Positions 1-27,405 of a stretch of 64,000 nt of DNA are shown here, piece after piece. Position numbers and translations under genes: made by a program. Within the stretch, counting starts at the first letter, position 1. Each line of letters starts with the position of its first letter. The stretch is from Tubiluchus corallicola (Eukaryota > Priapulida > Priapulimorpha > Priapulimorphida > Tubiluchidae). The notes under the pieces are model-generated. The model saw nothing but the letters and a program-made list of their open reading frames with translations, made no database searches and was not told the DNA's origin. The stretch lies in assembly GCA_030141605.1 (NCBI GenBank), contig JAQGDQ010000162.1:124001-188000 (forward strand), read 5' to 3'.

Positions 1-3000
1 GACAATTCCCGGCTTGTAAGTATTTCTGTGTGTGATTTTTGAATTGGTTGTAGATTGATGGTATTGCAAAATAAAAAAAACCTGCCTGAAGAAATTAGGT
101 AAAGGGTTAAGAGTAACATTCGCAGGCTTAGTAGGTCTAAGACATAATAATAAGTCTTTTCACAAGATCCTGTTAGTAAATCACTCTATGCAAAGACGAA
201 TGCATAATTAAGTAAATTCCTCGTAAAATAACTGAAGTTACTGAACTGATGTGGCAGATGGCTTTGCTTTACCCACGTGTCACGTGATGGTTGTACTTAA
301 GACACGTTGCTGTAGTGCATTTAACCTTTGACCTACAGCAGCTGCGCGTGCGCACAACGAAACTGTAAAAAGGCTTATTGCTGAATGTTGATTAAACAAT
401 GATGGATTACACCAGAGAAAAGAACCCTTGGCTGGTTTGGAAAAAGAACTGATCTAACTGCCATCTTATTCTATTCTCTACATTAATAGAAGCCTGATCA
501 GTTTTTTTATACAGTTTGACACTCTGTAAACAAGCACCATTGCTCAACAGCAGAGTCTTTTTATTATGTTGATGGTTGTAGTTGGACCAGAACCTAGCTA
601 ATTATTAACAATAATCTTTTAAGTTGAGTTACTGAAATGTTTGCGGTATCCTATATACCTCCATTGTGCAGAAGTCACCCATTCGTTTATTGACCATGTA
701 GAGCATTGTATAACTTTGCAGCAACCAAACTTGCCGTGTGACCACTCAACCATTTTTCTTAGAAAAAGTGAAGTGTTTAAAAAAGTTAATGTTCCTTTGT
801 TATATGATGCATGTTTTCAAAGTTCACTGATGTCTTCTCCAGATTCACTGCTCCTGTAACATTGTTCTCTTTTTAGTTTGTTGACTGGTTGCTATGACAA
901 CACAGTACAGCTGTGGACACTGCATGGAGAACACTTACTGACCATTCCCGGTCACCTAGGACCTGTCAAAGATGTAAGCTGGATAAGTTACGGTAATTTG
1001 AAAATTGAAATTTTACTAGGTTTGTTAGGATAGGGTCGCCACATTTACTAAATTTGTTAAATGTTTACATTGGCCTTACTAAATGAAACAATTCCGTTTA
1101 CACTCTATACATATATAATTATTATACGTGTACTTGTCGGCAGGAGTATGATCTACCATCTCGTCCAAGAAATTTTTCGCCTGTCACTGTTTAGAATGAC
1201 TTGATGCTGACAATATTTTTATAGCTATTAGTAATTGTTTCTAATGCTTATTAGGCTTATTAGCAATGGTTTCTGGTGGTTATTAGTAATTGTTTGTGAC
1301 GGTTATTAGTAAAGGTTTGTGACGGTTATTAGTAATGGTTTGTGACTGTTATTAGTAATGGTTTGTGACGATTATTAGTAATGGTTTGTGATGGTTATCA
1401 GAAATGGTTTCTGATAGTTATTAGTAAAGCTTTCTGATGGTTATTAGTAATGGTTTGTGACGATTATTAGTAATGGTTTGTGACTGTTATTAGTAATGGT
1501 TTGTGACGATTATTAGTAATGGTTTGTGACTGTTATTAGTAATGGTTTGTGACGGTTATTAGTAATGGTTTGTGACGGTTATTAGTAAAGTTTTCTGACG
1601 GTTATTAGTAATGGTTTCTGATGGTTATTAGTAATGGTTTCTGATGGTTATTAGTAATGATTTCTGATGGTTATTGAGTAATGGTTTCTGATGGTTATTA
1701 GTAATGATTTCTGATGGTTATTAGTAATTGTTTGTGATGGTTATTAGTAAAGCTTTCTGATGGTTATTAGTAATGGTTTCTGATGGTTATTAGTAATGGT
1801 TTCTGATGGTTATTAGTAAAGGTTTCTGATGGTTATTAGTAATGGTTTCTGATGGTTGTTAGTAAAGGTTTATGATGGTTATTAGTAATGGTTTCTGATG
1901 GTTATTAGTAATGATTTCTGATGGTTATTAGTAATGGTTTGTGACGATTATTAGTAATGGTTTTCGATGGTTATTAGTAAAAGTTTCTGATGGTTATTAG
2001 TTTGGTTTCTGATGGTTATTAGTAAAGGTTTCTGATGGTTATTAGTAAAGGTTTCTGATGGTTATTAGTAAAGGTTTCTGATGGTTATTAGTAATGGTTT
2101 CTGATGGTTGTTAGTAAAGGTTTCTGATGGTTATTAGTAAAGGTTTCTGATGGTTATTAGTAATGGTTTCTGATGGTTATTAGTAATGCTTTCTGGTGGT
2201 TATTAGTAATGGTTTCTGATGGTTGTTAGTAAAGGTTTCTGATGGTTATTGGTAAAGGTTTCTGATGGTTATTAGGAATGGTTTCTGATGGTTCTTAGTA
2301 ATGCTTTCTGATGGTTGTTAGTAAAGGTGTCTGATGGTTATTAGTAAGGGTTTCTTATGGTTATTAGTAAAGGTTTCTGATGGTTATTAGTAAAGGTTTC
2401 TGATGGCTATTAGTAATGCTTTCTGGTGGTTATTAGTAAAGGTTTCTGATGGTTATTAGTAAAGGTTTCTGATGGTTATTAGTAATGGTTTCTGATGGTT
2501 ATTAGTAAAGGTTTCTGATGGTTATTAGTAAAGGTTTCTGATGGTTATTAGTAAAGGTTTCTGATGGTTATTAGTAAAGGTTTCTGATGGTTATTAGTAA
2601 TGCTTTCTGATGGTTATTAGTAATGTTTCTGGTTATTAGTAAGTTTCTGATGGTTTAGTAAAGGTTTCTGATGGTTGTCAGTAATGGTTTCTGATGGTTA
2701 TTAGTAATGGTTTCTGATGGTTATAGAAGGTTTCTGATGGTTTAGTAAGGTTTCTGATGGTTATTAGTAAAGGTTTCTGATGGTTGTTAGTAATGGTTTC
2801 TGATGGTTGTTAGTAATGGTTTCTGATGGTTGTTAGTAAAGGTTTCTGATGGTTATTAGTAAAGGTTTCTGATGGTTATTAGTAATTGTTTCTGATGGTT
2901 ATTAGTAAAGGTTTCTGATGGTTATTAGTAATTGTTTCTGATGGTTATTAGTAAAGGTTTCTGATGGTTATTAGTAAAGGTTTCTGATGGTTATTAGTAA

Positions 3001-6000
3001 AGGTTTCTGATGGATGTCAGTAATGGTTTCTGATGATTATTAGTAATGGTTTCTGATGGTTATTAGTAATGCTTTGTGATGGTTATTAGTAAAGGTTTCT
3101 GATGGTTATTAGTAAAGGTTTCTGATGGTTATTAGTAAAGGTTTCTGATGGATGTCAGTAATGGTTTCTGATGGTTAGTAGTAATGGTTTCTGATGGTTA
3201 TTAGTAATGCTTTGTGATGGTTATTAGTAAAGGTTTCTGATGGTTATTAGTAAAGGTTTCTGATGGTTATTAGTAAAGGTTTCTGATGGCTATTAGTAAT
3301 GGTTTCTGATTCCATTATTAACATTTCTCCCATTAATTTTTAGATGAATCTGGTGGTAAGTTCGTCAGTGCTTCCCACGATCAAACACTTATGATCTGGG
3401 AGTGGAACAAGTCATCAAACGCAATCGATTGCGCCCATGTTTGCCGAGGTCACGAGCGAAGCGTCGAAAGCGTAGCAACGAGTCCCGATCAAACGCATTT
3501 TGCCAGCGGCTCTTGGGACGGAATGGTCAAGATTTGGTCAACGTGTAGGTACCAAGTTATTATATTATGTCTATTTTATTTTTAAGTTTTTGTTTTTGGA
3601 GAAAGTACCAAATGCAGATTTACCTGTGAAAATGGTAAAATTTACCCAGTTATGTACTGTGTTACACGGTATTCTCTTTAAATTTTGGAACTCAGGTAAA
3701 AGGATAGAAAAATAGAGAGGCTAAAGATTACATTTTCTGACACATAAGAAATTAGTTTTGTGAAGTGGATCAGAGTTAAAATTAGGGTTAGGGTTAGGAT
3801 TTGGGTTAGGATTATGGTTGGATTAGAGTTTGGATTAAGGTTAGGGTTGGGATTAGGGCTAGGTTGGGTTTTGGTTTGGGTTAGCTATTTAAATTGTGCT
3901 GGAATTGTAAACTCATTCCAGTAAAGAAATAACAAGAGATCGGAAAAACAAAATAATGAATGCTAACGTAAAGTAAATAAACATTGGTAAGGTAAATTAA
4001 GACACAGCAAAAAAGTAAACCAAAGATAGGTAGGATAAGATAAGAAAGGTAAAATGATGTCATGTCGGCGCAGTTTAAGAGCAAAAGTTATAAATGAATG
4101 TGTAGAAAACATTTTATTATGTGACTGACAATAGAAACGTCTGATTGCATTGTTTTTAAACTTTGTCAGGTTGTATTATATTCTTACTTTAGATTAGAAT
4201 AAACTAAGTGTAAATATTTTATATTTTGCTCGATCATGTTCATAATACAGTCGCACCTCTTTATATTGCCCCTCTTTATAACACCAGCCTCACTATATTG
4301 CCAACTCATTGCTTGACCACATTTCCATAATGTATTAAATATAGGTAATACAGCTAAACTTGCATACCACCATCGTATCTGCTGTGCCAGAAATCTATTT
4401 TACATAATAAATTTGTTATTCTGTTATAATGTCTTCCAAGGTAAAGCATAGAGAACTGCTGCTGAAAAAACAGCCATTGTTTTATAAAAACAATGATCTC
4501 TGATAAGAAAAAAATTATGGTGTTTAAATTAAGATTTAGGTTTTGTAGCAAGTGACTGTATGAAAGTGAATGTTGAGGTTTTGAGCAAGGAATGTGCATT
4601 TTAAGTTTTTAAGAGTACAAGAGTTGTGTACAGTAGTGAATTGATGAGTACAAGAGTTGTGTACAGTAGTGAATTGATGTGCATTTAGCTGTGTGACTCA
4701 AGGTCAAGTTATTTTCTGCGGCTATTTATAGTCTTAATTATCCAATGTTACGTTGGAAGCATACAAGCTAGGTATCAGCTAATTGTCAGTATTTTGTAAG
4801 ATTGTTTCTACACATTGTATTACGAAAACGTTTTGCAACGTATCACAGTAAAACTGCACCTGCATTGTTAATGCATCAGAAATGTGCAATATAACATATG
4901 TATGGCTGTCGGTATAATGCTATGCTGTTTAAAGTCACATATAAAAATGAACTAGGAAAGAAAATTGGGGTTGCACAGTAGAATAGGTATAATGTTTAGT
5001 GAAGCTTACCGCCAACCTCGCTGTAGTGCCATATTTTGTGGTCTCTGAGAAATGGCGTTATAACGAAGTTAATCCGCAGCTTGTCAGACTTACCAGGTCA
5101 AGCCAAATAAGATTACATAATTCTGTTCGGTCTATGTTAGACAAGGTTAAATTAAACTTATTTAGACACTCATGTCTGGCAGTGACAAATGTAGAGTACC
5201 TCTTGACAGTCAAGTGCAATGGGTGAATTTGTTACATTATTAATTAGGCTTTACCCTACAGCTGATGTTTCACTTTTGTTTAAAGGAGGAGAAAAAGCAA
5301 TTTGAAAGTGCATTCCTCATAATTATATTACTTAGTGTTACGCTTACCTGTTTGAAGGTCTTATGTAATTAGAAAAGAAAATTCTTAGTAATTTAAAGTA
5401 TTAGCACCACCTGGTAAAATGACACTATATTGCACTTCCAGTGTGGACCAGAAAATGTATGATTGATGTTAGTGACAATATAAATTCTTTTAAATTTTTC
5501 CTTACTTAACGAAGTATGTGCTACTGGTATGATTACTATGATTACTTTTCCAAACATTACGCTATATGATTTAAATTTGTTTCAAACAACTTATTTTAAA
5601 CGGCTGCACAAATTGTCATCTCGGGAATTTAAATTTACAAGTTTTATACAACGTTACTGCTAACACAAGCTCTGTATGCAATAAGACAGCATGTAAGTGA
5701 TGTAAAATTCTAAGACAAATCTTTCAAGATTTATTTGTGAAGAATGTTTCTTGTACTTTCAGGTTTTGATGACAGGGAAGGAGAACAGGAGAGGAAGAAG
5801 ACTAAGGGCAACAATCAGAAATCAACCATTCAGGTTTGTCTGTTTACTGCTTTTGTTCTGTAAAGTATTGATTTTATGAAATTGTAAATTGTTTTCTAAG
5901 GTGTTCAAAATCTAACTGTAGAGCACTACTTCATGATGCAAATAAGCAAAAACGGCGTGAGATTGCACTACACACCACAAAAAGTCCATCTTCGTATCGA

Positions 6001-9000
6001 ATTTGATTTGCAACAGTTGATGGTGTAGCAGCTCAGGTAATGAAGTTGATGGAGTGCATATTTGGCTGAACTTTAAAGACAAGTTACAATTTCACAAAAT
6101 CTGCTTTGTGTTGTATATTAGCAGGTTTTTCATATTATTCATTTAAATAAAATTAAAAGCTGGGGTAGATTGGTGTACTCAGCATCAGGTAGTTCAATGA
6201 AAATTTCATGCCTAGTAACTTAGTTTTCTTAGTAACATTTCCCATTCACAAATCTGTAGTCACTAGTTCCACTAGTACCTTTGTAAGGTGATAAGTTTGT
6301 TCTTCTTGTGTAACTGATCTATGGTATCGTGCTCGTTTCTCAGCACAAGCAGGACGTATCAGTAGAAAATGAATTCTGTTATAGTAAGCCATTATTATAG
6401 TGAACAGTTTTCATGGTTTTCATAGTTTTCAAACTGGGCCTTGGGCACCAAATTTTGGACGGTGTTTAATTCTAGAAGGGATTAGTTTCCTAAGATTACG
6501 TCACTTAAAAGAAGACAGGATTACTTTTCGTATACTACCCATTTTCAAGACCCTAAAAAGTATACGGTCTAACAGTTAATACTAGTTTCTGGTAATTAGT
6601 AGTAGATTAAAACTTTAATTAACGGCTGGTGAGCCAATCGTTGATGACATCACAAACTAACATAATGTTCAACGGCAAAAATATTCCACGAGCGTGTTAC
6701 ACGTGTTTGCGAAAACAAAACTTGAACTACAGTGTTACTGTAAGATTTTCAGTGTGTTGTACCAAAAATAGACAAGTTTTAAGATGAAAATTCAAATTTC
6801 AAATTTACTGCTGTCAAACGTATGTAGTTCGTCACAAACTGATATATTTGAACTGAGAGGTACAGCATCTGTTTTTTGTGCAATGCATTTTCAAAATACA
6901 GGCGCTAGTGCGCGTCTGACTAGAGAATGGCGAAATTGAGGTAACAGCGAAGAACTAGTGGCGCGAATATGAAATTGTGTTTGTGTTGGGTTCGGTTTTG
7001 CTTTGAAGCAGCCATTGGTAATGCATTATCCTGCTTTTGCTCCCAATTTCTGTATAAGTGTTTACAGAATGGTCCTTTCTTTCTGTGGCCGTGGGGTAGG
7101 GATTAGACCATTGAGGAGGGGGCGCAAAGAAAACTTTTGCTTAGGGTGCCAAACTACTTAGTACCAGCCCGGGTGCTAATGCAATGTGCATATGCAGTGT
7201 AACATAATTCCTTAGAATATCGGCTTGGGCTGTGCAGACAGCCTAACAGCAGTCATTGTGTATACTTCAACACAGTTTACACTGCTGTTTTTAAAACGTA
7301 GTTACTATAGTCATATAGAGATGTATACAAGTACGCAGCTGTTTACATATTAAACAACTGTAATTTATTACATCAACATTCTTCACAAAATTTCTTGTAA
7401 ATAAATGCAATGACCTAACAAGAAGCAGGTAGAATCTACAAGTTCAGAACATATACATAGTTGACATATGCAAATGCAAATTTTAAACAAGCTAATTTAA
7501 TTCACGATGTTCAAAATTTATTTTGAAACCTAAAATCTTGCAAAGTTCGTTCTAGCAGCAGAGCTTAGAAACTGCTACTACATAAACCTGCTTTGTGAGG
7601 ATTAATGTTTAAGAACATAGTAAATTACAATGCACATATTGTTCTTCTAAAACACTAAAGATAATTCAAGATCACACACACAGGAAAAGAACTTCTGGTA
7701 AAGTATCGCTAAACATATCCTATAACATTTCAGTCTCATCTTCATCAGTTTCAAGAATTCTGTTCACTTGTGTGCTCTCTTTCATGAATGCTGGTAAGTG
7801 ACATGGTCCAGCTCACGTATGTCATTCAATTACGGCAAATTTATTCCATCAAATGTGCTGCTCAGTTGCAAGATAAATTTCAACAATGTTGGTCACTTGT
7901 GTGCTCCATTTCAAGAGGGTTGTTAAGTTATGTGCTCCAATTAAAGATGTTTATTCACGTATGCTTCGTTTCAAATGTGCACGTGATTGAAAGATTAATT
8001 TCAAGAATTAATGAATTCAAGAATTACTTAAATGTCACTTATGCGTTTCCCAAAACTGGTCGCATAAACAAAATTTTCTTGAAAGCCATTTTAAAGTCGG
8101 TACTAGAAAATGCATATATGATTGGATTAATAGCACTGTTTATTATACCCAGTGCATATAGAACCTGGGATGTTTCGTATTTCCTTTTGTGTAATGACAA
8201 ATAAATAAAAGTGTCATGCAGGTATCCAGGACTCAAACATGCAAGAAAAGTAAAGGTAACAATAGCTAGGGTTTTCGTTGCTTTCATTTGCATCATATTT
8301 GCCTGTCTTCCTTGACCTTGACTGTGTATTTGTATAACCTGTCTTCTTGCAGTTCTCCAAATGAGGGTATATAACACAAGAATCACAGCCGTTGGTAAAT
8401 AAAATACTAAAATAATAACAAGAATTAACAAACCCTGTGTGTTGTGAATAATACTCAGAATAGAGAAGATAACTGCCTCAGTTAAACCAGAAATCCAGGT
8501 GATGCAAAGTGCTGCAACAATGGCTTCTTTACTCACTATCGTGTGATACCTCAACGGATGAACAACAGCTACATATCTTTCAGCTGCTATCAGACACAAG
8601 TGAAAAGCACTTGCATTTATCATTCCATACTGCAGCGTGTGATCAACTAACATAAACACCCAGGATGATCTCATAGGCAGATACACTAACTCTGTAATTT
8701 CTACTGGTGCTGCTAAGCCAACAAGTAAATCAGTTACTGCAAGTGATGCTATGAGAACATTTGTTTTAGTTTGTAAGCAGCGAGTTTTACAAATTGCAAT
8801 CAGAACTAATGAGTTTCCTATAACTATAGCTACACCTGACAATGTGAATAGCAGAATTGCTATCAGTATTACAAGTTTACCTGAAGAAGCTGTCTCTATT
8901 TCAGTTACATTCATCGTGGCAAATTCGTTAAGATTCATTTTCATCGTTGCTTTGAGATTTGAAAAATGAAATATAAAACAGGACACGAACAGATGTAGTG

Positions 9001-12000
9001 CGCTCTCGCCCATAGTGCACAATTTTCCGACCTGGTCCAGAAGACATGGCTACAGTGGTTTTATTTACATATACGTTCTATTTTAGTACGTTTCAAGACG
9101 AATATGACCAGCTTGGAACTCTTTGGCATTAACAAATTTTCTTGGAAACAAAAGCACGATATGTAATTACAACAGTCCTTATTCTCACACAAAGCTTGTT
9201 CCATAAAATATCCTTTTAGTCAGCACTGTGTGGTTTTAAAAGCCGCTGTTTTGCTGTTTTTGCAGTGTTTACTAAGGCCGCTGAAAAACATTCTTATACT
9301 TCTGTAAATATACCAAAATTCATTGGCAAATGTACTGTGCCCAAAAATATGTTTATTTTCTTCAGTATTTTACTAAAATTTTGCACTGTAAAGAATACGT
9401 TAAGATATTTTTCACATTAACGAATAATGTAACCACAAAATACGATGGCAGCTTTTGCATTTTGTGCTTTGTAGAGATGTGAAGCCATTTGCTGAACAAT
9501 TAGGCAGCGGGCAAAGTCAAGCATGGGCTATTGTCGCATGAATGTAGAGTAATCAATGTAAAAGCATTCAGTTGCGTTCCCCACCCAAAGATAAATAATG
9601 CTTAGCCTAGTAAGTGGGCTCACTTAGTTGCCCCGCAGGACAAAAATCAATAACGTCTGGCTATTTAAAGCTCAAATTTGAAACTTAGAAGTTCTTTCTT
9701 GCATACATGTATCTTCGCTGGTTGAATCCCTAGTACCATTTTATTTCTTCCCCTTTTTATCTTTCTTTGCTTGTTTTCTAGATAAAAAAATCAATTGTTT
9801 CTTGCATAGACTCTTTCTTCTTTTCTGCTAAAACCATTAGCAACATCATGTCTCACTTCTCAACTTTGACTTTGCTTACCATTCATTTTATTAATGTTGG
9901 TAAGTTGTGTGGTCCGACTCAAGACTGTTGTTCATTTGCATCATTCGAACACATTGCTCCTGCTGGTTAACAAGATCCATTTCTAGAATGTTGGAAAGTT
10001 ATGCATTTCCAATAAAAGATGCTGCTCAGTTACGTGCTGTTATCATTATTTACCGATAATTATTGTGGAAACAAGATTTTCTTGAAAGCCATTTTAAAGT
10101 CTGTACTAGAAAATGCATATATGATTGGATTAATAGCACTGTTGATTATACCCAGTGCAAACAAAACCTGGGTCGTTTCATATTTCTGTTTACAAAAGGA
10201 CAAATAAGTAAGCATATCATGCATATATACTGGACCTAAGCATACTAGAAAAGTAAAGGTAATAATGGCAATAGTTTTTGTTGCTTTCATTTGCATCACA
10301 TTTGTATGACTTCCTTGGCCTTGATTATGTATCTGTAACACCTGCCTTCTTGCAGTTCTCCAAATTAGGGCATATAATATAACAATCGTGGAAATTGGTA
10401 AATGAAACGCTATAATGCTATCAAGAATCAATAATCTTTGTGCTTTAAAAAAGTTTCCAGAAACGAAAATGAATGGCTCAATTAATGCGAAAACCCATGT
10501 AATACAAAGTGCTGCAAGAATGACTTCTTTTCTTGTGAAGATGTGATACCTCAGTGGATAAACAACAGCGATATATCTTTCAGCTGCTATCAGACACAGG
10601 TGAAAAGCACTTGCATTTATCATTCCATACTGAAATGTGTACTCCATAAGCATAAACACCCAGTTTGATCTCATAGGCAAATACACTAACCGTGTTATTT
10701 CTAATGGCGCTGTTAAGCCAACAAGTAAATCAGTTACTGCTAGTGATGCTATGAGAACATTTGTTTTAGTTTGTAAACACGGAGTTTTACAAATGGCTGT
10801 CAGAACCAATAAGTTTCCTGTAACTATAGCAGTTCCTGATAACAGAAACAGAATTACTGCTACCACTTTCATAGGCTTACCTGAAAAAGCAGTGTCTGTT
10901 TCAGTTATATTTACAGTGCCAAAAGCATCTGAACTCGAATTCATCATTTGCAGTAATTACTGCATTGCGTTTTGGAAAGTCAAAACTGTATGCGATTTGC
11001 CATGAAGTTCTGTCATTGACTTTAAACCTTACAATTTCCCAAGCAGTCACAGTCACAACAGAAGTTTTATTCTTAGGACAAACGTAGTCAGGAAACACTT
11101 TGGCATAGTAAAATGCTGATCGAAGCACAAGCAGTGTAAGGAAGTACCACAGTCGCCAACCTCACATAAACTGTTATTCAGATTTAAAAATAGTGTAACT
11201 ATAATTCATGATAACAGCGTTTCTTCTGCATGTATTGTGTGCATTTTGTAGATGCGAAGCTGTCTGCTGAACAAACCTAACACAATTAAAGTGCAGCTTG
11301 CAAGCTGTGCAAGCTTATTGTGCCAGTATGTATGGCTACGCAAACATTTAAGCGCCCACAGACAATGTGATTGTCACATCTATGTAACCTAAACCGTTTA
11401 TCAAATCATGATTTGATAGCATAGTAATTACATTTGTTTACTGATCATTAAGGAACTGGTAGTCTTTCAAATTTAATTACAAACCTTCTGAAGTAAGCTC
11501 GCGTCAAATGTTCATTTCTTTCAAGTTTTCTGCTGTTGCTCAGCTGTTTGTTTCATTTCAAACTTAATTCTCGCTCGTATGCTCCATTATAAGCTTGTTG
11601 CTCAATTGCGTAGTGTCTTATAAGCTTGCTGTGTACACCACAAATAGTTAGACGGTTACCAGTGTAGGTTTATGTAAAAAAGCAGCCATCATATAAAACA
11701 TTCAAATCAATTTGATACAATGTTAAGTCGTTTACTTTTTATCATCTGTTCTGCCACTCTGAAAGTAGTCTCCTTACTTTCTGACATCCACCTAAAACGG
11801 AGTACCACGAATCAAATTCTGGACCAACATTTATTGTGGTGTCTGTGTACTCTGTTTTTTTTGAAATTTTCCTTATAGTCAACATTGTGTTCTTGTTCCA
11901 ATTGCTTGCAAATAATTTTTTTTAACGGAAGAATGTTAAGTGTTCGTTGCCAAAGACGCACTTTTCATTTCGAGCTCACAGTTATATTCACATTAGCAAG

Positions 12001-15000
12001 CTCATTAGTGCCTGAAGTTGAATTCATGATTCTTTGCACTTTTGAAAACAATGTTTTGGTTTAGTTTCTGTAGCCAGTAGCCAACCCGAAAACGCTTCAG
12101 CATAAGAAAGTGGTGCAATTACCACCATCATAGTCCTAACACAACACTGATTCTGATTGATTCAGTAAAAGAACAAGGTAACCATAGTACATGAGAGTAG
12201 TGTGTTTATTACGTGTGTTCTCTAGATGTCAAGCAGCCTGCTGAACTTCCAATGCAACAGAAGTGTAACATGCAAGCGAAAGTAGTACAAATATACAAAC
12301 ACTTCAACAATTAGACACAGGCAGTATGATTTTCACACCTACGTGAACTCGATATGTATCATATCTTTTGTTACCAAAAAATCTTGTATTTCCATAACAG
12401 AAGTTATTACATTTGCATTTATTATATTTATTGATGATCAAAGGACTGGTATACTTCAAAATTATTTGGTAGTTTATGGGCAGTTGCGCCATCCGTGAGC
12501 GTTAAAGGACAAGAAAATGGCCAGCCAAAGTAAGCCTCAGAAAATTCGCAATAAATAATTATATGACCTAAGTATAGTCTTAAGCGAATGAAGTACTGAC
12601 GTTTTTGCATTTACTGCAATTTTTGTAAAATATTTCAACCGCTGCCGTAAACGTTGGCACAGACATGTTTCATTTAGTCCGCCAATTGAAAAGCCAACAG
12701 GTGACTGATCACGTGGCATGACATCACTTGAACACAGTCGCAGTGAGTTCTGAGCACGAGCGCTTAAGATTGCCTCTAACCGTTATAGTTCTTTAGCGAA
12801 AATTTCTGAGACTTGCTTTAACTAGGCCTTTTCTTGTCCTTCAGTGTGCAATTTCGCCGTCAAGCCGTTATTTCTCAGAAACAGCAGTGATACGTAAAAA
12901 ATACCTAAATCTTGAAATGCAGCCCATTTTTACTGATTTGCAACTTTTGAATTTTGGGTAGGCAGCAGGTAGTGCAATGTGCAAAGTCAAGCATGGGCTA
13001 TTGTCGCATGAATGTAGAGTAATCAATGTAAAAGCATTCAGTTGCGTTCCCCACCCAAAGATCAATAATGCTTAGCCTAGCAAGTGGGCTCACTAAGTTG
13101 CCCTGCAGGACAAAAATCAATAACGTCTGGCTGTGTAAAGCTTAAATTTGAAACTTAGAAGTTCTTTCTTGCATAAATGTATCTTTGCTGGTTGAATCCC
13201 TTGTGGAATTTTATTTATTCTCCTTTTTTTCTTTCTTTGCTTGTTTTCTAGATAAAAAAATCAATTGTTTCTTGCATAGACTCTTTCTTCTTTTCTGCTA
13301 AAACCATTAGCAACATCATGTAAACCACTGTAAACCATCAACACTATAAACCATTAGCAACATCATGTCTCACTTCTCAACTTTGACTTTGCTTACCATT
13401 CATTTTATTAATGTTGGTAACACATTGCTCCTGCTGGTTCACAAGATCCATTTCTAGAATGTTGGAAAGTTATGCATTTCCAATAAAAGATGCTGCTCAG
13501 TTACGTGCTATTAACATTATTTACCGATAATTGTTGTGGAAACAAGATTTTCTTGAAAGCCAATTTAAAGTCTGTACTAGAAAATGCATATATGATTGGA
13601 TTAATAGCACTGTTGATTATACCTAGTGCAAACAAAACCTGGGACGTTTCATATTTCTGTTTACAAAACGACAAATAAGTAAGCATGTCATGCATATATG
13701 TTGGACCTAAGCATACTAGAAAAGTAAAGGTAATAATGGCTATAGTTTTTGTTGCTTTCATTTGCATCACATTTGTATGACTTCCTTGGCCTTGATTATG
13801 TATCTGTAACACCTGCCTTCTTGCAGTTCTCCAAATTAGGGCATATAATATAACAATCGTGGAAATTGGTAAATGAAATGCTATAATGCTATCAAGAATC
13901 AATAAACTTTGTGCTTTAAAAAAGTTTCCAGAAATGAAAATAAATGGCTCAATAATTGCGAAAACCCATGTAATACAAAGTGCTGCAAGAATGACTTCTT
14001 TTCTTATGAAGATGTGATACTTCAATGGATAAACAACAGCGATATATCTTTCAGCTGCTATCAGACACAGGTGAAAAGCACTTGCATTTATCATTCCATA
14101 CTGAAATGTGTACTCCATAAGCATAAACACCCAGTTTGATCTCATAGGCAAATACACTAACTGTGTTATTTCTAATGGCGCTGTTAAGCCAACAAGTAAA
14201 TCAGTTACTGCTAGTGATGCTATGAGAACATTTGTTTTAGTTTGTAAACACGGAGTTTTACAAATGGCTGTCAGAACCAACAAGTTTCCTGTAACTATAG
14301 CAGTTCCTGATAACAGAAACAGAATTACTGCTACCACTTTCATAGGCTTACCCGAAAAAGCAGTGTCTGTTTCAGTTATATTCACAGTGCCAAAAGCATC
14401 TGAACTCGAATTCATCATTTGCAGTAATTGCTGCATTGCGTTTTGGAAAGTCAAAACTGTATGCGATTTGCCATGAAGTTCTGTCATTGACTTTAAACCT
14501 TACAATTTCCCAAACAGTCACAGTCGCAAGAGAAGTTTTATTCTTAGGACAAACGTAGTCAGGAAACACTTTGGCATAGTAAAATGCTGTTCGAAGCACA
14601 AGCAGTATACGGAAGTACCACAGTCGCCTACCTCACATAAACTGTTATTCAGATTTAAAAATAGTGTAACTATAATTCATGATAACAGTGTTTCTTCTGC
14701 ATATATTGTGTGCATTTTGTAGATGCGAAGCTGTCTGCTGAACAAACCTAACACAATTTAAGTGCAGCTTGCAAGCTGTGCAAGCTTACTGTGCCAGTAT
14801 GTAAGGCTACGCAAACATTTAAGCGCCCACAGACAATGTGATTGTCACATCTATGTAACCTAAACCGATTATTAAATCATGATTTGATAGCATAGTAATT
14901 ACATTTGTTTACTGATCATTAAGGAACTGGTAGTCTTTCAAATTTAATTACAAACCTTCTGAAGTAAGCTCGCTTCAAAACTGCAGAGAGGGAATTCTAT

Positions 15001-18000
15001 CAGTTCATTTCTTTCAAGTTTTCTGCTGTTGCTCAGCTGTTTGTTTCATTTCAAACTTAATTCTCGCTCGTATGCTCCATTATAAGCTTGTTGCTCAATT
15101 GCGTAGTGTCTTATAAGCTTGCTATGTACACCACAAATAGTAAGACAGTTACCAGTATAGGTTTATGTAAAAAAGCAGCCATCAGATAAAACATTCAAAT
15201 CAATTTGATACGATGTTAAGTCGTTTACTTTTTATCATCTGTTTTGCCACTCTGAAAGTAGTCTCCTTACTTTCTGACATCCACCTAAAACGGAATACCA
15301 CAAATCAAATTCTGGACCAACATTTATTGTGGTGTCTGTGTACTCTGTTTTTTTTTAATTTTCCTTATAGTCAACATTGTGTTCTTGTTCCAGTTGCTTG
15401 CAAATAATTTTTTTTAACGGAAGAATGTTAAGTGTTCGTTGCCAAAGACGCACTTTTCCTTTCGAGCTCACAGTTATATTCACATTAGCAAGCTCATTAG
15501 TGCCTGAAGTTGAATTCATGATTCTTTGCACTTTTGAAAACAATGTTTTGGTTTAGTTTCTGTAGCCAGTAACCAACCCGAAAACGCTTCAGCATAAGAA
15601 AGTGGTGCAATTACCACCATCATAGTCCTAACACAACACTACTTCTGATTGACTCAGTAAAAGAACAAGGTAACCATAGTACATGAGAGTAGTGTGTTTA
15701 TTACGTGTGTTCTCTAGATGTCAAGCAGCCTGCTGAACTTCCAATGCAACAGAAGTGTAACATGCAAGCGAAAGTAGTACAAATATACAAACACTTCAAC
15801 AATTAGACACAGGCAGTATGATTTTCACACCTACGTAAACTCGATATGTATCATATCTTTTGTTACCAAAAAATCTTGTATTTCCATAACAGAAGTTATT
15901 ACATTTGCATTTATTATATTTATTGATGATCAAAGGACTGGTATACTTCAAAATTATTTGGTAGTTTATGGGCAGTTGCACCATCCGTGAGGACAAGAAA
16001 ATGGCCAACCAAAGTAAGCCTCAGAAAATTCGCAATAAATAATTATATCACCTAAGTATAGTCTTAAGCGAATGAAGTACTGACGTTTTCGCATTTACTG
16101 CAATTTTTGTAAAATATTTCAACCGCTGCAGTAAACGTTGGCACAGACATGTTTCATTTAGTCTGCCAATTGAAAAGCCAACAGGTGACTGATCACGTGG
16201 CATGACATCACTTGAACACAGTCGCAGTGAGTTCTGAGCACGTGTACTATAAAGATTTGTGTTGTGGTTCTGTGATGCCATCTAATGTCGCGCCGCCGTG
16301 ACAGTCTCGTGGGAGTATTTAAAATCAAAACAAACAGGAAATTCTTTTAACACGAATATGATAAACGCTTAAGATTGCCACTAACCGTTATAATTCTTTA
16401 GCGAAAATTTTCTCAGACTGCTTTAACTAGGCCTTTTCTTGTCCTTTAATGTGGAATTTGGCCGTCAAGCCGTTATTTCTCAGAAACAGCAATGATACGT
16501 AAAAAATACCTAAATCTTGAAATGCAGCCCATTTTTACTGATTTGTAACTTTTGAATTTTGGGTAGGCAGCAGGTTGCCTTGGTCATAGTATTGTTTCAT
16601 CTCTTTGCTCATCTTGGTTGCCAGGTATAATAATAATACTTGGGTGATACCTGACTTGTTATCTAAACGTCCCTGATTCAAATGCACCTCACTCTCGACT
16701 TTTTCACTTTTCCTTTTGGTCAAATTTGTTCTTAAGCCTGTAAACAGTTCTGTGACCTGGGTCAAGCGGGTTCTTTCCAGGGAATTCAAGCAAAAGTTGT
16801 CTGAGTTTTTAAAGTCAAGCTAAGTCTCTGTCAGTACAATATGCATTGATTTTTTTGGTTCTGTGCACAGAATAACTGATGCTGTTACATGATTATAATA
16901 ACAATATATACTTTAGCTATTCATTGGGGTTTCACTACTATTGGGGAACTTCTTAATGCTTTACGAGTTGTGTACAATCTAGGTTAACCACATAAACTTG
17001 CATATAGAAATACCTGCCACTGTAGCAAGGCATGAATCCTGGAACACACTTGTGGTTAAAAGGTCTAAACCACTGACTCTTGGGACTCCATTTGGGAGTA
17101 CTTGGCTGTTTGGCACATTGCATGCTAGTGAAACTTGGACAAAACGTTCCACCTATGTTCAGAGAGGCTTTTGAAACCAGCTTATGACAGCTTAACCTAC
17201 ACTTGAGCATTGTAGTTCTTGTGCGGATATTAGGAACTAAACATAACTGATTTTGTACAAAGCAAAAATGTAACCAAAAGTGATTGGCAGTCTACTTAAA
17301 CTCAATTCAATGGTGGTTTCACTGATTAATGTGAATTTTTTTCATTTCAGACGCCAGTCAGCACATTTACAAGTCACAGAGAATCAGTGTCCACATTAGT
17401 GTGGCTTGGACAGAGGGACCTATGCACAGCATCCTGGGATCATTCCATGAAAGTGTGGGATGTTGAAACTGGAGCTGAGAAAATTAAACTTGTAAGCTGG
17501 ATACAGTACATCTTATGACATTGTCATTTGCTGCTGTCGTGGAAAAGGATTTCAATTGTTCAGCTGTATAAAAGTTTTAGTCAGAAGCAAGGTGAATAAA
17601 CTGGCCTAATGATCATACCAGTGCCTTGATGTTGACCAACATGATATTAGAATTAAATATACAAGCATCGTACAACAGAACAATTCATTTTGTATTCTAC
17701 AAAAGTTACAACTTATGCAAGTTATCTGAAGTTTTAGTAGGAAAGTTTTAGTAGTAGTTACTCGGTGTGCTAAAATTGCTTTTATTTCTTCTAGTGAGCA
17801 GCTGAAACTGCAAATTATATTGCCACAAAGTAACACTATTTTTCACTCTGTCTTTTGTAATTTTCTTGCATTATTGCAAAAGAATTCAAAACTTGTGTGC
17901 TTTTTGCCTGCAATTGCTTCTTCCGTGTTTGCTTGTGGAGACCATCAATTGAGATAAATGAAATATTTTGGGGGTGTACAATATCATGTGTTTTTCAATG

Positions 18001-19460
18001 TGTTTTTTCGTTGTGTGCATGAAAGGTAAAGGATCAAATGGCAGTGTAATTATGTCAAGGTGCAATTCGTGTGGAGGAAGAGCTGAAATGAAAAAATAAT
18101 AAATGAATTTTCCACTGCTTTTATTGACAATATGATGCTAAGCTTGAGTTGTAAGTGTCTCATTTGTATTTAGTTGGTTAGATAATTTTAACAGTCAAAA
18201 CTTTTTTTGTAATATCTGTAAAGTCCCTGCCAAACTGTTTTAACTTGTTTTAATGTAAAACTTTCATATAATTTAATTGTTGTGCTGCAAAAGATGCTAA
18301 AAAGTATATAACGTGTGTTCATTTACATTTCTGCTCTTTACAGAATGGAGCTAAGGTATTTCTTAATGTGTCCTCATTACCGGAAACTCAGCTTATCTTG
18401 TCCGGATCTGCTGACCGGCATGTACGACTGTGGGACCTTCGTGTTCCTGGTGAGTAGGTCTACTTATTTAAGGAGCTGAGCTCTGTCAATAGCAAGAGTT
18501 GAAGTATTTTCAATCTACATTATTTTTAACGAGTGTTACAGCTGAGTTGTCAGGATGAATTCTTGGCTGGCACAAGTTAAGTAATGTCAAGCTTGGTTGC
18601 ACAATGAATAGGTGAAGTTCTGGAAAACTAATTCCCCACCCTTTCGCAACCATTCAACATTAACAGTAGGCGGCACCACAGATTTAGACGTGCCCCTCCC
18701 CCTAGGCGACATTGGGTGTATCTAAATCTGTACTCTGTTTGGTAATTGTTGCTTTGTGGCTTGCACTGAGTGGCAAACATTGTAAAAAAATCTCAAGGCT
18801 GTAAAACTACAAAACACTATGATCTTGAGCTATTGACTTTCATTCACATTTGTTTACTCACATTCCGATGTTCATGTTGCAATTGCTATAACATCATTTG
18901 TTAAAAATATTTTTAAATGTCAATGTTGATAAATTTGGTCGACAGATGGCAGCAGCGTGAAGAGTATATACACCTCTCATAATGGCTGGGTATCCTGCGT
19001 AGATTGGAGTCCTGATGATGATAATCATTTCATGTCTGGATCCTATGATCAGCTGATAAAGCTTTGGGACTTGAGGAGGTACTTAGCACTGATTTTTGTT
19101 GATTTATGCATCTGCTTGACGTCTTTGCGTATAGGACAGTGACAGCTTTCATGGCAAGTAGTTAAACTGCATGTTTATTAGTCTCAAAACAATATGTACA
19201 AATCAGTGAAACTGAAATATTGAGTAGATCTGTAGACTATTGCTGCAGTGCTAATCAGATTAGCTGACTATGATTAAGCACTTTTTACCTCCAAAATAAG
19301 ACAGTCTTCTTTTTGCAGTCCTAAAGTTCCATTGTACAACATGACGGGTCATGAAGAGAAAATCCTGTGTTGTGATTGGACAGTTCCTGACTGCGTCGTG
19401 AGTGGTGGCGCTGATGCGTCTGTGAAGATATTCCAAGCATCTGCAAAAATCTCGTCATGA
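1..19460 (+). CDS. WDR12: WDR12, ribosome biogenesis WD40 protein (5'-partial)
   Basis: WDR12 forms the PeBoW complex with PES1 and BOP1 and acts in the nucleolus in 27S/32S pre-rRNA processing and 60S maturation (family knowledge). Eight exons join in frame: 1-15, 877-992, 3344-3544, 5763-5833, 17351-17491, 18344-18449, 18946-19078 and 19319-19460 (TGA stop). They give about 307 residues, matching human WDR12 from about residue 110 to the end. WD motifs are visible: [78 protein letters not shown] and a final [10 protein letters not shown] blade. The charged linker after the third of these (exon 5763-5833, ERKKTKG) matches the basic insert of the family. The N-terminal NLE domain lies upstream of the window. 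Introns carry a minisatellite (993-3343) and three antisense GPCR genes (5834-17350). I am very sure of the identity; the 15 bp first exon fragment rests on frame alone. Confidence 0.95.
168..384 (+). repeat. Dispersed repeat, copy 1 (inverted copy near 33.4 kb)
   Basis: This stretch of a WDR12 intron, with blocks such as AAATCACTCTATG, CATAATTAAGTAAA, CTTTGCTTTACC and TTTAACCTTTGACC, occurs in reverse complement at 33334-33543. The order and spacing are the same, with scattered substitutions. A shorter direct piece lies near 33648-33715. Its ends and class were not resolved; a MITE or SINE is likely. Confidence 0.7.
1226..3310. repeat. 23 bp minisatellite in a WDR12 intron
   Basis: About 2.1 kb of direct repeats with the unit TTTCTGATGGTTATTAGTAA plus three variable bases (ATG, AAG or AGG class), roughly 90 copies. 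The 5' part (about 1290-1600) is dominated by a TTTGTGACGG variant; the rest is mostly TTTCTGATGG. Short or damaged units cluster near 2620-2760. Near the 3' end a six-unit block starting with a GATGTCAG variant is repeated twice (about 3012-3290), indicating local higher-order amplification. There is no spacer diversity, so it is not a CRISPR. It fills almost the whole intron between exons 877-992 and 3344-3544. Confidence 0.97.
3778..3890 (+). repeat. Degenerate TTAGGG (telomere-like) repeats in an intron
   Basis: Two or three perfect TTAGGG units are followed by decayed variants (TTAGGA, TTGGGA, TTGGATTA, TTGGGTT) over about 110 bp. This is the animal telomere motif embedded inside a gene, so it is an interstitial relic or a simple-repeat expansion, not a chromosome end. 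Confidence 0.75.
4613..4678 (+). repeat. 33 bp perfect tandem duplication
   Basis: Two adjacent identical units begin GAGTACAAGAGTTGTG and end GTGAATTGAT. They lie in a WDR12 intron and have no coding content. Confidence 0.85.
5278..5713 (+). mobile_element. TTAA-type MITE-like repeat, copy 1 (WDR12 intron)
   Basis: It begins TTAAAGGAGG and shares an ordered set of blocks with 35304-35745 and 42485-42925: CTTACCTGTTTGAAGG, TAATTAGAAAAGA, CTGGTAAAATG, GGGAATTTAAATTTAC and AACACAAGCTCTGTATGC. A TTAAAGGRR start is typical of T2/Kolobok MITEs (family knowledge). The right end is not clearly defined here. It stops about 50 bp upstream of WDR12 exon 5763-5833. Confidence 0.65.
6505..7006 (+). mobile_element. 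TTAA-type (T2/Kolobok-like) MITE, diverged copy
   Basis: The left end, TTAAAAGAAGACAGG, and the right end, near GGTTTTGCTTTGAA, are diverged forms of the better preserved copies at 44087-44430 and 55768-56385. Shared internal blocks include GATGACATCACAA, GAGCGTGTT and TTCAGTGTGTTGTAC. Confidence 0.6.
7748..7999. repeat. Degenerate ~30 bp tandem repeat 3' of GPCR gene 1
   Basis: Poorly conserved units of about 30 bp around a consensus like TTTCAAGAATGTTGGTCAC then TTGTGTGCTCCA recur five or six times just downstream of the first GPCR stop codon (the gene is on the minus strand). Similar phrases occur 3' of the other two GPCR genes (about 9895-10040 and 13405-13500), so the repeat belonged to the ancestral GPCR locus. 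Confidence 0.55.
8039..8944 (-). CDS. Rhodopsin-class GPCR 1, single exon, nested in WDR12 intron
   Basis: About 301 residues with seven hydrophobic segments. It shows TM1 GN, TM2 [10 protein letters not shown] (D2.50), TM3 ERY, a TM4 Trp, TM5 Pro and TM7 [11 protein letters not shown] followed by a basic helix-8-like tail, so it is a rhodopsin-class G-protein-coupled receptor at the plasma membrane. Three features are atypical. Position 3.25 is Met, and the second extracellular loop has no Cys, so the usual disulfide is absent. The TM6 CWxP motif reads CLSP. An acidic residue sits at 3.28. Loss of that disulfide and the INPIIYAF tail recall the melanocortin/EDG/cannabinoid/adenosine group, but I cannot assign a ligand. 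The frame is open upstream to 9022; I chose the Met at 8944 because the following residues (NVTEIET...SGK) align with the N-termini of the two paralogues. It lies antisense to WDR12. Confidence 0.9.
   Translation of the reverse strand: MKMNLNEFATMNVTEIETASSGKLVILIAILLFTLSGVAIVIGNSLVLIAICKTRCLQTKTNVLIASLAVTDLLVGLAAPVEITELVYLPMRSSWVFMLVDHTLQYGMINASAFHLCLIAAERYVAVVHPLRYHTIVSKEAIVAALCITWISGLTEAVIFSILSIIHNTQGLLILVIILVFYLPTAVILVLYTLIWRTARRQVIQIHSQGQGRQANMMQMKATKTLAIVTFTFLACLSPGYLHDTFIYLSLHKRKYETSQVLYALGIINSAINPIIYAFSSTDFKMAFKKILFMRPVLGNA
10060..10947 (-). CDS. Rhodopsin-class GPCR 2, single exon, recent paralogue of GPCR 3
   Basis: 295 residues with seven membrane segments, TM2 [12 protein letters not shown]3 ERY, TM7 [11 protein letters not shown] and two N-terminal glycosylation sites (MMNSS, NIT). 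As in GPCR 1, position 3.25 is Met, loop 2 lacks Cys and the TM6 motif is CLGP instead of CWxP. An acidic residue (E3.28) is kept. It is about 97% identical to GPCR 3 by eye. Two C-to-T changes make stops relative to GPCR 3: one in the upstream frame, which fixes the start at MMNSSSD, and one (CAA to TAA) that ends the protein at KKILFPQ, about 10 residues early. The receptor core is intact. It lies in the WDR12 intron, antisense to it. Ligand unknown. Confidence 0.9.
   Translation of the reverse strand: MMNSSSDAFGTVNITETDTAFSGKPMKVVAVILFLLSGTAIVTGNLLVLTAICKTPCLQTKTNVLIASLAVTDLLVGLTAPLEITRLVYLPMRSNWVFMLMEYTFQYGMINASAFHLCLIAAERYIAVVYPLRYHIFTRKEVILAALCITWVFALIEPFIFVSGNFFKAQRLLILDSIIAFHLPISTIVILYALIWRTARRQVLQIHNQGQGSHTNVMQMKATKTIAIITFTFLVCLGPVYMHDMLTYLSFCKQKYETTQVLFALGIINSAINPIIYAFSSTDFKMAFKKILFPQ
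11940..12027 (-). pseudogene. Relic of a GPCR N-terminus (unit 1)
   Basis: A short minus-strand reading frame starts [19 protein letters not shown] and then KGK. This resembles the GPCR N-termini ([18 protein letters not shown], then SGK) in length, glycosylation sites and order. The homology then stops and no transmembrane segment follows. It is probably the truncated head of a fourth receptor copy, and is duplicated at 15430-15519. Confidence 0.45.
13501..14418 (-). CDS. Rhodopsin-class GPCR 3, single exon
   Basis: About 305 residues from MMNSSSD. The frame is open to 14487, but the equivalent upstream codons in GPCR 2 contain a stop, so the inner start is preferred. Seven membrane segments carry GN (TM1), LAVTDLLVG (TM2), AERYIAVV (TM3), FLVCLGP (TM6, no Trp) and [11 protein letters not shown] (TM7). 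Position 3.25 is Met and loop 2 has no Cys, so the canonical disulfide is missing. Differences from GPCR 2 lie mainly at the outer end of TM2 (R/Q), in intracellular loop 2 (LRYHIFT versus LKYHIFI), in TM4/loop 2 and in the C-tail, which here continues [10 protein letters not shown]. It is probably a membrane receptor of unknown ligand, antisense inside the WDR12 intron. Confidence 0.9.
   Translation of the reverse strand: MMNSSSDAFGTVNITETDTAFSGKPMKVVAVILFLLSGTAIVTGNLLVLTAICKTPCLQTKTNVLIASLAVTDLLVGLTAPLEITQLVYLPMRSNWVFMLMEYTFQYGMINASAFHLCLIAAERYIAVVYPLKYHIFIRKEVILAALCITWVFAIIEPFIFISGNFFKAQSLLILDSIIAFHLPISTIVILYALIWRTARRQVLQIHNQGQGSHTNVMQMKATKTIAIITFTFLVCLGPTYMHDMLTYLSFCKQKYETSQVLFALGIINSAINPIIYAFSSTDFKLAFKKILFPQQLSVNNVNST
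15430..15519 (-). pseudogene. Relic of a GPCR N-terminus (unit 2)
   Basis: Duplicate of the fragment at 11940-12027. It reads [19 protein letters not shown] and then KGK before losing similarity to the receptors. No membrane segments follow. Confidence 0.45.
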
Positions 19461-24887: not shown

Positions 24888-26892
24888 TGTATTGTACGCG
24901 TCATGGAATGTATATACAGTATTATAAGTACAGATATACGCTTTAATTAATGTTCTTGGTTTATACTGGGATAAAGTACTATTTTCTGAAAAATATCAGT
25001 GTCACACGCTTAACCTACAATTCACACTTGACACGATGCCTACGAAAGATCAACATTATGATAATTATGAACGAGCCGTCCGCATGCGCAATTTAGCAGG
25101 TTAGAGGGAACTATGAACTATGAATTTTATTTCACACAACAAAAAATACAATATCAAACACATTAATAAACTTTAAATAAAATAATTTGAGTAGTGCGAG
25201 GTGAGTGTACGACCATACGGTCATTAACACACTCACCTTACTTAAATGAAAAAATGATTATAGTTATGCATGCTTCTGTAGATAACTTATTGTAAATAAG
25301 GACAAAGTAAATGATGTAATAATAGCAATGGAGGCTGCACTTATAACCTTCCTGTATGTACCCCCTTAGCTACTCACAACGCCAGACTGCCCTTTACAGA
25401 TCTGTTTCCCACGGATATACCTAACGGCGAAATTGACTAAGTTGTATGCCCTTTGCTACTATGTGTGCAAGCAAAGAAAAGCAGTGCTTTTAAGCAGATA
25501 AAAACAAACAAAAACACAAACAAAACAAAGAACAACCAACCAAACAGACAAACACAATCAAATATCTTGTTTGATAAGTCTTTTATACCACTTGAATAAT
25601 CTTTTTAAGTGGCAGATACATTAAATAATACAGAGGCAAAAACACAAACTACAAAATTTGCATTGAATAAGCGTTCGTTGCCATTATACAAAATCAAATT
25701 AGGCACACACACGACTTCAGCTACATTTCGCAGCAAAAATAGCCTTCACAGAAAGCGTTGGGAGAAATTTGAATTTTCGTTATTACAAAAGTTTGGGTAT
25801 TCTCATTTCGAAACTGACGTTAAAGAAAAACTTATTGCAAACTAATCAAGCCATATTTTCCCATTATGCTATTTCATTTGGCACTTATTATTCCTGTTAT
25901 TATTATGTGACTTGCTAGTATTCTATGTAGAGAGCAACAGACAGCATGTAGCTTCGGCACTGAAAAGAAGCCACAGTCTGCTGAGTTTTAAAATCACATC
26001 GATAAAACAAAAAATGGAGCGCATCTGCGATCTGAAACCTCACGGAGAGCAAGACGCTGTGAAACACTTGTTCCAAAATTTCAACTGTTATCCCTCGTAA
26101 TCGCTTGCAGAGAGCATCTCAGCCAAATAAAACACAGTAACAACTGGGAGGCGTACGGGTTTGATTACACATATTCAATAAACAAATTCAAAGCAGACCG
26201 TTTCATGACTGAGGAGAGCATACATGGGAGAGTCTCAGAGCTGTTGGTAATCCAATCTTTATGTTGTCTCTTTATGTACGATCTCACTCGGTTTCAGAAG
26301 AAATCAGCTTGTAAATAAAAGTTGGAAAAAACTCTCAAGTTGGGTATACAGTTGGTGCAGCAGGAGGAGGACTCTAGCTGTCACTGTGGCTGGAGGAAGT
26401 ATGTGGTTGTGATTCGTGAATTTGAATGTACAGAAACAATTTCTCTGAGTTAAATTGTTGTGGAAATAGTGCCTGATTATTTTTCATAAGCAAGAATTGG
26501 AAAAAGTCAATTATTGCTGCCATTTATGTGTGTGATATTAGGACAGAGCAAAGATATGACGATATATTTTTCTGGAAACTGTTGTTCAGATTAACATAAA
26601 AAATGTCGTCATAACGTCATAGCTTTCGGATCGCGGTTACTTTTTATTGTTAAAAATTCCTGATGGACTTATGCGCGTGTGCCAAACAGCAATAATTTTA
26701 TAAGGTTTGATCATCAATTATCTCACCATTTCTTTTAGCGACCATAATAATGTGAACGTGCACCATTACAACAGTTGTTTCTTACTGGCGTCACATTACT
26801 GAGGACTGATGATAGACAAGCCTCAGCTGTAGCTTAACTTAATGTAAACTGTTAACGTGATTTCAAATTATAAGAAATTTTAAAAATCATTA

Positions 26893-27405
26893 GTGCTTCA
26901 TCAAAGGATGCTGGGACCATCAAACATGTCTGCAAGTCTAGCACTAAGGACTCACAGGGCGTCATTATCATCAGACGGTTACGATTCCACCAGCTCAACA
27001 GACGGGGGCGTAACGAGCAGCACAAAACCAGACGACAGGTCATCCTCAGAAAAAGGTCACAAGAAGCAAACCAACGTGGCCGCGCTCAGTAAGGCGCGGC
27101 AAGCGGCAAACGCTCGCGAGAGGGCACGAACACATAGTGTGAACGTTGCATTTTCCGCACTCCGCACGCACATTCCTACAGAACCGGCCAACAGGAAACT
27201 GTCAAAGATTGAAACCCTGCGACTGGCTGTGAGTTACATAGCTCATTTAGAGACTGTTTTACTGTTGAGCGAGTTGGAAGAGGAGGTGGTAGAGCAACCC
27301 TGCATCCGCAGTGCCGAGTTACTTTCCAAGTTACATTCGTCAACCTTTCAGTCGCCCACTGTCTGTACATTTTGCCTGCGAAGCCAGACTGTAGGTAGTC
27401 GGTAA
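26893..27405 (+). CDS. TCF15: bHLH transcription factor, paraxis/scleraxis (TCF15/SCX) group
   Basis: A 170-residue single-exon protein, predicted nuclear. The bHLH spans about residues 69-122: basic region [16 protein letters not shown], helix 1 [11 protein letters not shown], loop [12 protein letters not shown] and helix 2 [16 protein letters not shown]. The C-terminus keeps the paraxis/scleraxis signature: QPC after helix 2, and a terminal CTFCL followed by SQ. In this family the protein dimerises with E-proteins on E-boxes and patterns mesodermal or connective tissue in bilaterians; the role here is inference. The N-terminus is Ser/Thr-rich. The usual ERDRT reads ERART, an Asp-to-Ala change next to the DNA-contacting Arg. 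The start is the first Met of the frame; M6 or M12 are alternatives. I am sure of the group but not of TCF15 versus SCX orthology. Confidence 0.92.

Follow-up and report, generated by a model that had tools for sequence, protein, structure and literature searches.

Three antisense single-exon receptor genes in a WDR12 intron of Tubiluchus corallicola, and their relatives within a gamma-glutamyltransferase gene

The window analysed here, a 64-kb stretch of Tubiluchus corallicola DNA without any N, carries on its plus strand the C-terminal part of the ribosome-biogenesis gene WDR12 and, on the minus strand inside one intron of that gene, three single-exon class A G protein-coupled receptor genes, hereafter A, B and C. 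The features at the locus are listed below in window coordinates.

877-992, plus strand: WDR12 exon, with AG/GT splice borders, in-frame join and human WDR12 alignment
3344-3544, plus strand: WDR12 exon (splice borders, in-frame join, human WDR12 alignment)
5763-5833, plus strand: WDR12 exon at the upstream edge of the host intron (same three lines of support)
5834-17350, plus strand: WDR12 host intron of 11,517 bases, with GT...AG borders and flanking exons in frame and collinear with human WDR12
8039-8944, minus strand: receptor gene A (start at 8944 or 8938), single-exon class A GPCR, 7tm_1 E 2.7e-39
9511-12970, no strand: tandem duplication unit 1, with gene B, 95-97% identical to 12981-16575
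10060-10947, minus strand: receptor gene B, single-exon class A GPCR, 7tm_1 E 1.3e-36
12505-12841, no strand: unit 1 copy of a dispersed MITE-like element that has inverted ends; its interior is shorter than that of the unit 2 copy by about 123 bases
12981-16575, no strand: tandem duplication unit 2, with gene C, 95-97% identical to 9511-12970
13501-14418, minus strand: receptor gene C, single-exon class A GPCR, 7tm_1 E 1.8e-36, protein 97% identical to B
15990-16445, no strand: MITE-like element of unit 2, about 456 bases, twin of the unit 1 copy
17351-17491, plus strand: WDR12 exon at the downstream edge of the host intron (splice borders, in-frame join, human WDR12 alignment)
18344-18449, plus strand: WDR12 exon (same support)
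18946-19078, plus strand: WDR12 exon (same support)
19319-19460, plus strand: last WDR12 coding exon, including the stop (same support)

The WDR12 exon borders were set by plus-strand translation, GT/AG sites and reading frame. Joined together, the seven exons encode an open 302-residue C-terminal part of the protein, which aligns with human WDR12 (8fky) at E 2.2e-88 in a single collinear alignment over nearly its whole length. Residues to either side of the 5833/17351 junction are direct neighbours in human WDR12, and because the joined exons remain collinear with human WDR12 across this junction the intron is placed at 5834-17350, exactly where the first-pass annotation had drawn it, between exons 5763-5833 and 17351-17491. 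A genome search finds WDR12 as one locus in the 344-Mb assembly, the remaining matches being weak and fitting other WD-repeat genes; further WDR12 exons, including NLE-like sequence, are recognizable by eye within 10 kb upstream of the window, and the WDR12 N terminus is not among the reported matches of a genome search with the NLE domain, probably because the N-terminal exons are short. Misassembly of WDR12 itself was considered and is ruled out by the joining exons, the human alignment and the single locus. Judged from the sequence, the host intron thus appears real and single-copy in the assembly. Another WDR12 intron, between exons 877-992 and 3344-3544, is filled by a 23-base minisatellite of about 90 copies (1257-3310) with a strong G-over-C bias on the plus strand.

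The minus-strand open frames of A, B and C extend over 8039-9049, 10060-10956 and 13501-14499, and all three match the 7tm_1 profile at positions 1-260 of 260 with no stop. The entire coding region of each gene lies within the one WDR12 intron, so that the earlier description of three intact, antisense, single-exon receptor genes is borne out; of the span it gave, 8039-14487, the lower end stands and the upper does not, the conserved start of gene C being placed at 14418 because the extension upstream of it is absent from the near-identical copy B. An AATAAA signal on the receptors' own strand follows the stop codon at 84 bases in A, 168 in B and 92 in C.

All three proteins carry the E/DRY and NPxxY motifs used as class A criteria, as ERY in helix 3 and NPIIY in helix 7. 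The helix 6 motif CWxP, common but not defining in class A, is absent and is represented by CLGP or CLSP: leucine replaces the tryptophan at position 6.48 in A, B and C, and CWGP is found in most of 11 sampled relatives. With numbering read off an alignment to the beta-1 receptor, position 3.32 holds glutamine, not the amine-binding aspartate of aminergic receptors, and position 3.25 has no cysteine in any of the three. The closest solved structures are aminergic and trace-amine receptors. Membership in the melanocortin-like (MECA) group, suggested by the missing 3.25 cysteine and a short second outer loop, is not claimed, since a profile search ranked aminergic receptors first. A model predicted from the A, B and C proteins as the only input sequences was unusable (mean pLDDT 36.6). 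As far as the available parts of the published accounts go, the receptors resemble animal single-exon class A expansions, such as the vertebrate-type odorant and trace-amine receptors and the amphioxus and starfish chemosensory receptors, in their single-exon frames, tandem arrays, many broken copies and great expansion in number, but differ from them in glutamine 3.32, the lack of cysteine 3.25 and leucine 6.48 (PMC2764704, PMC5442662). Their ligands may be chemosensory or other environmental cues.

Genes B and C each lie in a unit of about 3.46 kb, and the two units are 96.6% identical over a main block of 2833 bases and about 95% identical in other long blocks; the MITE-like element that both contain recurs elsewhere in the genome, at some 40 sites or more. 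The proteins of B and C are 97% identical, and A shares 69-71% identity with either, its similarity to them being confined to the coding region (8066-8923). Values of dN/dS are 0.25-0.33 for A-B, 0.34 for A-C and 0.28-0.31 for B-C. The comparison of A with the younger copies indicates that these are selected proteins under purifying selection, as follows from the A-B ratio; in simulations without selection at roughly the A-B distance, a frame of such length stays open in 0-0.1% of runs. The B-C pair is too young for open frames to tell much, with a probability of about 0.4 of finding no stop.

A whole-genome search with B returns 134 places, down to 35% identity, which are spread over many contigs and as a rule arranged in tandem. 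A tree built from 56 of these places unites A, B and C in one clade (support 100/99), with B and C closest to each other; the clade is sister to 40 receptors of other contigs. The three genes thus share a common ancestor, and their monophyly fits a single arrival in the WDR12 intron with subsequent duplication there. Two receptors on different contigs, L015 and L020, share 1.9 kb at 91.6% identity reaching outside the coding region, and such shared non-coding flanks favour DNA-level copying over retroposition for the copies concerned. Between the WDR12 trio and other clusters similarity is limited to the coding region. Pfam scans of receptor flanks on contigs C401, C2114, C391 (left side only) and C32 (421-427k) revealed no host gene.

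The largest cluster of the family lies on the plus strand of contig C1770 (G000), at 225977-293290 (loci L081, L082, L087 and L090). It is flanked by two successive exons of a gamma-glutamyltransferase (GGT) gene that is also on the plus strand, so that cluster and host share one strand. One GGT exon, matching profile positions 349-436, is found at 223734-224003 and the next at 295351-295482, with the last coding exon following; the joined sequence gives an alignment with the human GGT1 light chain (E 1.2e-48) that is ungapped across the junction. The intervening intron, measured between the ends of the profile matches and with the true splice sites within some tens of bases, spans 71,347 bp and contains receptor sequence at 27 places: 15 are full length and free of stops, and the other 12 are broken or partial. 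The corresponding intron of a GGT paralogue, on contig C1988, measures about 0.88 kb (60324 to 61203). Independent evidence from contigs C150 and C1131, where receptors come after a GGT exon and the next GGT exon comes after receptors, speaks against C1770 being chimeric. The GGT-flanking stretches on C150, C443, C1131 and C1770 are 91-95% identical in long blocks and 87-97% over shorter ones, and are either alleles that the assembly keeps separate or segmental duplicates of recent origin. The presence of the same receptor family on its host's own strand in GGT also means that the family is not characterized by antisense orientation.

Nested genes are common in animals and are mostly accounted for by intron room, the internal genes being typically short, intronless and on the opposite strand (PMC8467205, PMC8527503, PMC10282587). 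Nesting is reported as typically affecting 5-10% of genes (PMC10282587), the figure for vertebrates being about 4-9% (PMC8467205); in a ctenophore 12.2% of exonic bases are nested (PMC8527503). The window itself offers another instance, a ChaC-like (gamma-glutamylcyclotransferase) gene of two minus-strand exons (54643-54443 and 51081-50449) that lies antisense inside a WDR90 intron. The exons of WDR90 lie on the plus strand to either side of this gene and extend from the CFAP20-type domain, near 34 kb, as far as the fourth propeller, near 62.5 kb. Genes A, B and C share with animal nested intronic genes their short length, intronless structure, opposite strand, origin by duplication and large host intron, but depart from the typical case in the presence of three tandem copies in one intron and in a wider family that also occupies the 71-kb intron of another host gene. 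The WDR12 nest is a real but ordinary arrangement of a known kind.

In light of these results we propose that this large, mobile family of single-exon class A receptors has been inserted into introns and then amplified in tandem. One of its members would have entered the WDR12 intron once, in antisense orientation; an older duplication would then have separated A from the common precursor of B and C; and a recent duplication of the 3.46-kb unit, probably by unequal exchange, would have produced B and C. The receptors would since have been maintained by purifying selection, probably have promoters and polyadenylation signals of their own from which they are transcribed, and would be removed together with the intron during WDR12 splicing. 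We hold this sequence of a single antisense insertion, copying in place, retention by selection and probably independent transcription to be very likely. The founding insertion itself may well have taken place at the DNA level; retroposition of a single-exon gene is also possible, given the coding-only resemblance of the trio to other clusters and the single-exon structure of the relatives as well.

The same locus could be read in other ways. WDR12 transcription might repress the receptors by antisense interference or keep their chromatin open, and the trio might have been retained for that reason. All three genes are intact and lie precisely antisense, and opposite-strand nesting has documented regulatory effects in single cases: the nested ceh-10 induces its host polq-1 in C. 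elegans (PMC12274878), and the available text of one source reports interference by nested genes in particular cases (PMC3192792). We consider such a role quite unlikely, given that nesting in animals is common and usually opposite-strand (PMC8467205, PMC8527503) and that orientation is not conserved in this family, its largest cluster being nested in sense within GGT; the arrangement can be explained without any regulatory coupling to WDR12. It is also conceivable that B and C are two alleles set in tandem by the assembler, in which case the intron would hold two receptors. Their units diverge by 3.4% (main block) to 5%, a range that heterozygosity reaches in certain marine invertebrates (in Hormiphora, SNPs plus indels amount to 3.2%; PMC8527503), and the related loci on several contigs at about 91-95% identity point to haplotype redundancy or recent duplication in the assembly. 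Against this, the units differ by the 123-base length change within the MITE-like element and by protein changes, tandem arrays are the norm for the family, and the genome search returned no allelic WDR12 contig, although the last would also be expected had the alleles been merged. We therefore regard the allelic explanation as unlikely. Finally, A, B and C could be decaying pseudogenes parked in the intron, as the share of broken or partial places in the GGT cluster shows decay to be common in the family, but the full-length, stop-free profile matches and the A-B dN/dS ratio make this very improbable.

Taken by itself, the WDR12 nest adds one more nested gene group to those already described. 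A broader reading, in which the family uses introns of unrelated genes to grow, the GGT intron having swollen as receptor copies filled it, and host transcription may select or gate receptor expression, is suggested by a GGT intron of 71 kb compared with about 0.9 kb in the paralogue, together with the smaller antisense array in WDR12; we put it forward as speculative and rather improbable. With one family antisense in WDR12 (three genes) and sense in GGT (27 places), the genome can serve as a natural test of the influence that host transcription and orientation have on the expression and decay of the receptors.

Two observations concern other parts of the window. An exon at 26884-27405 (plus strand) encodes a bHLH transcription factor (HLH E 1.8e-20), of paraxis/scleraxis type by eye, and WDR90, otherwise a many-exon gene over roughly 34-62.5 kb, contains a single coding stretch that runs uninterrupted for about 2.2 kb, at 39830-42010 (plus strand).
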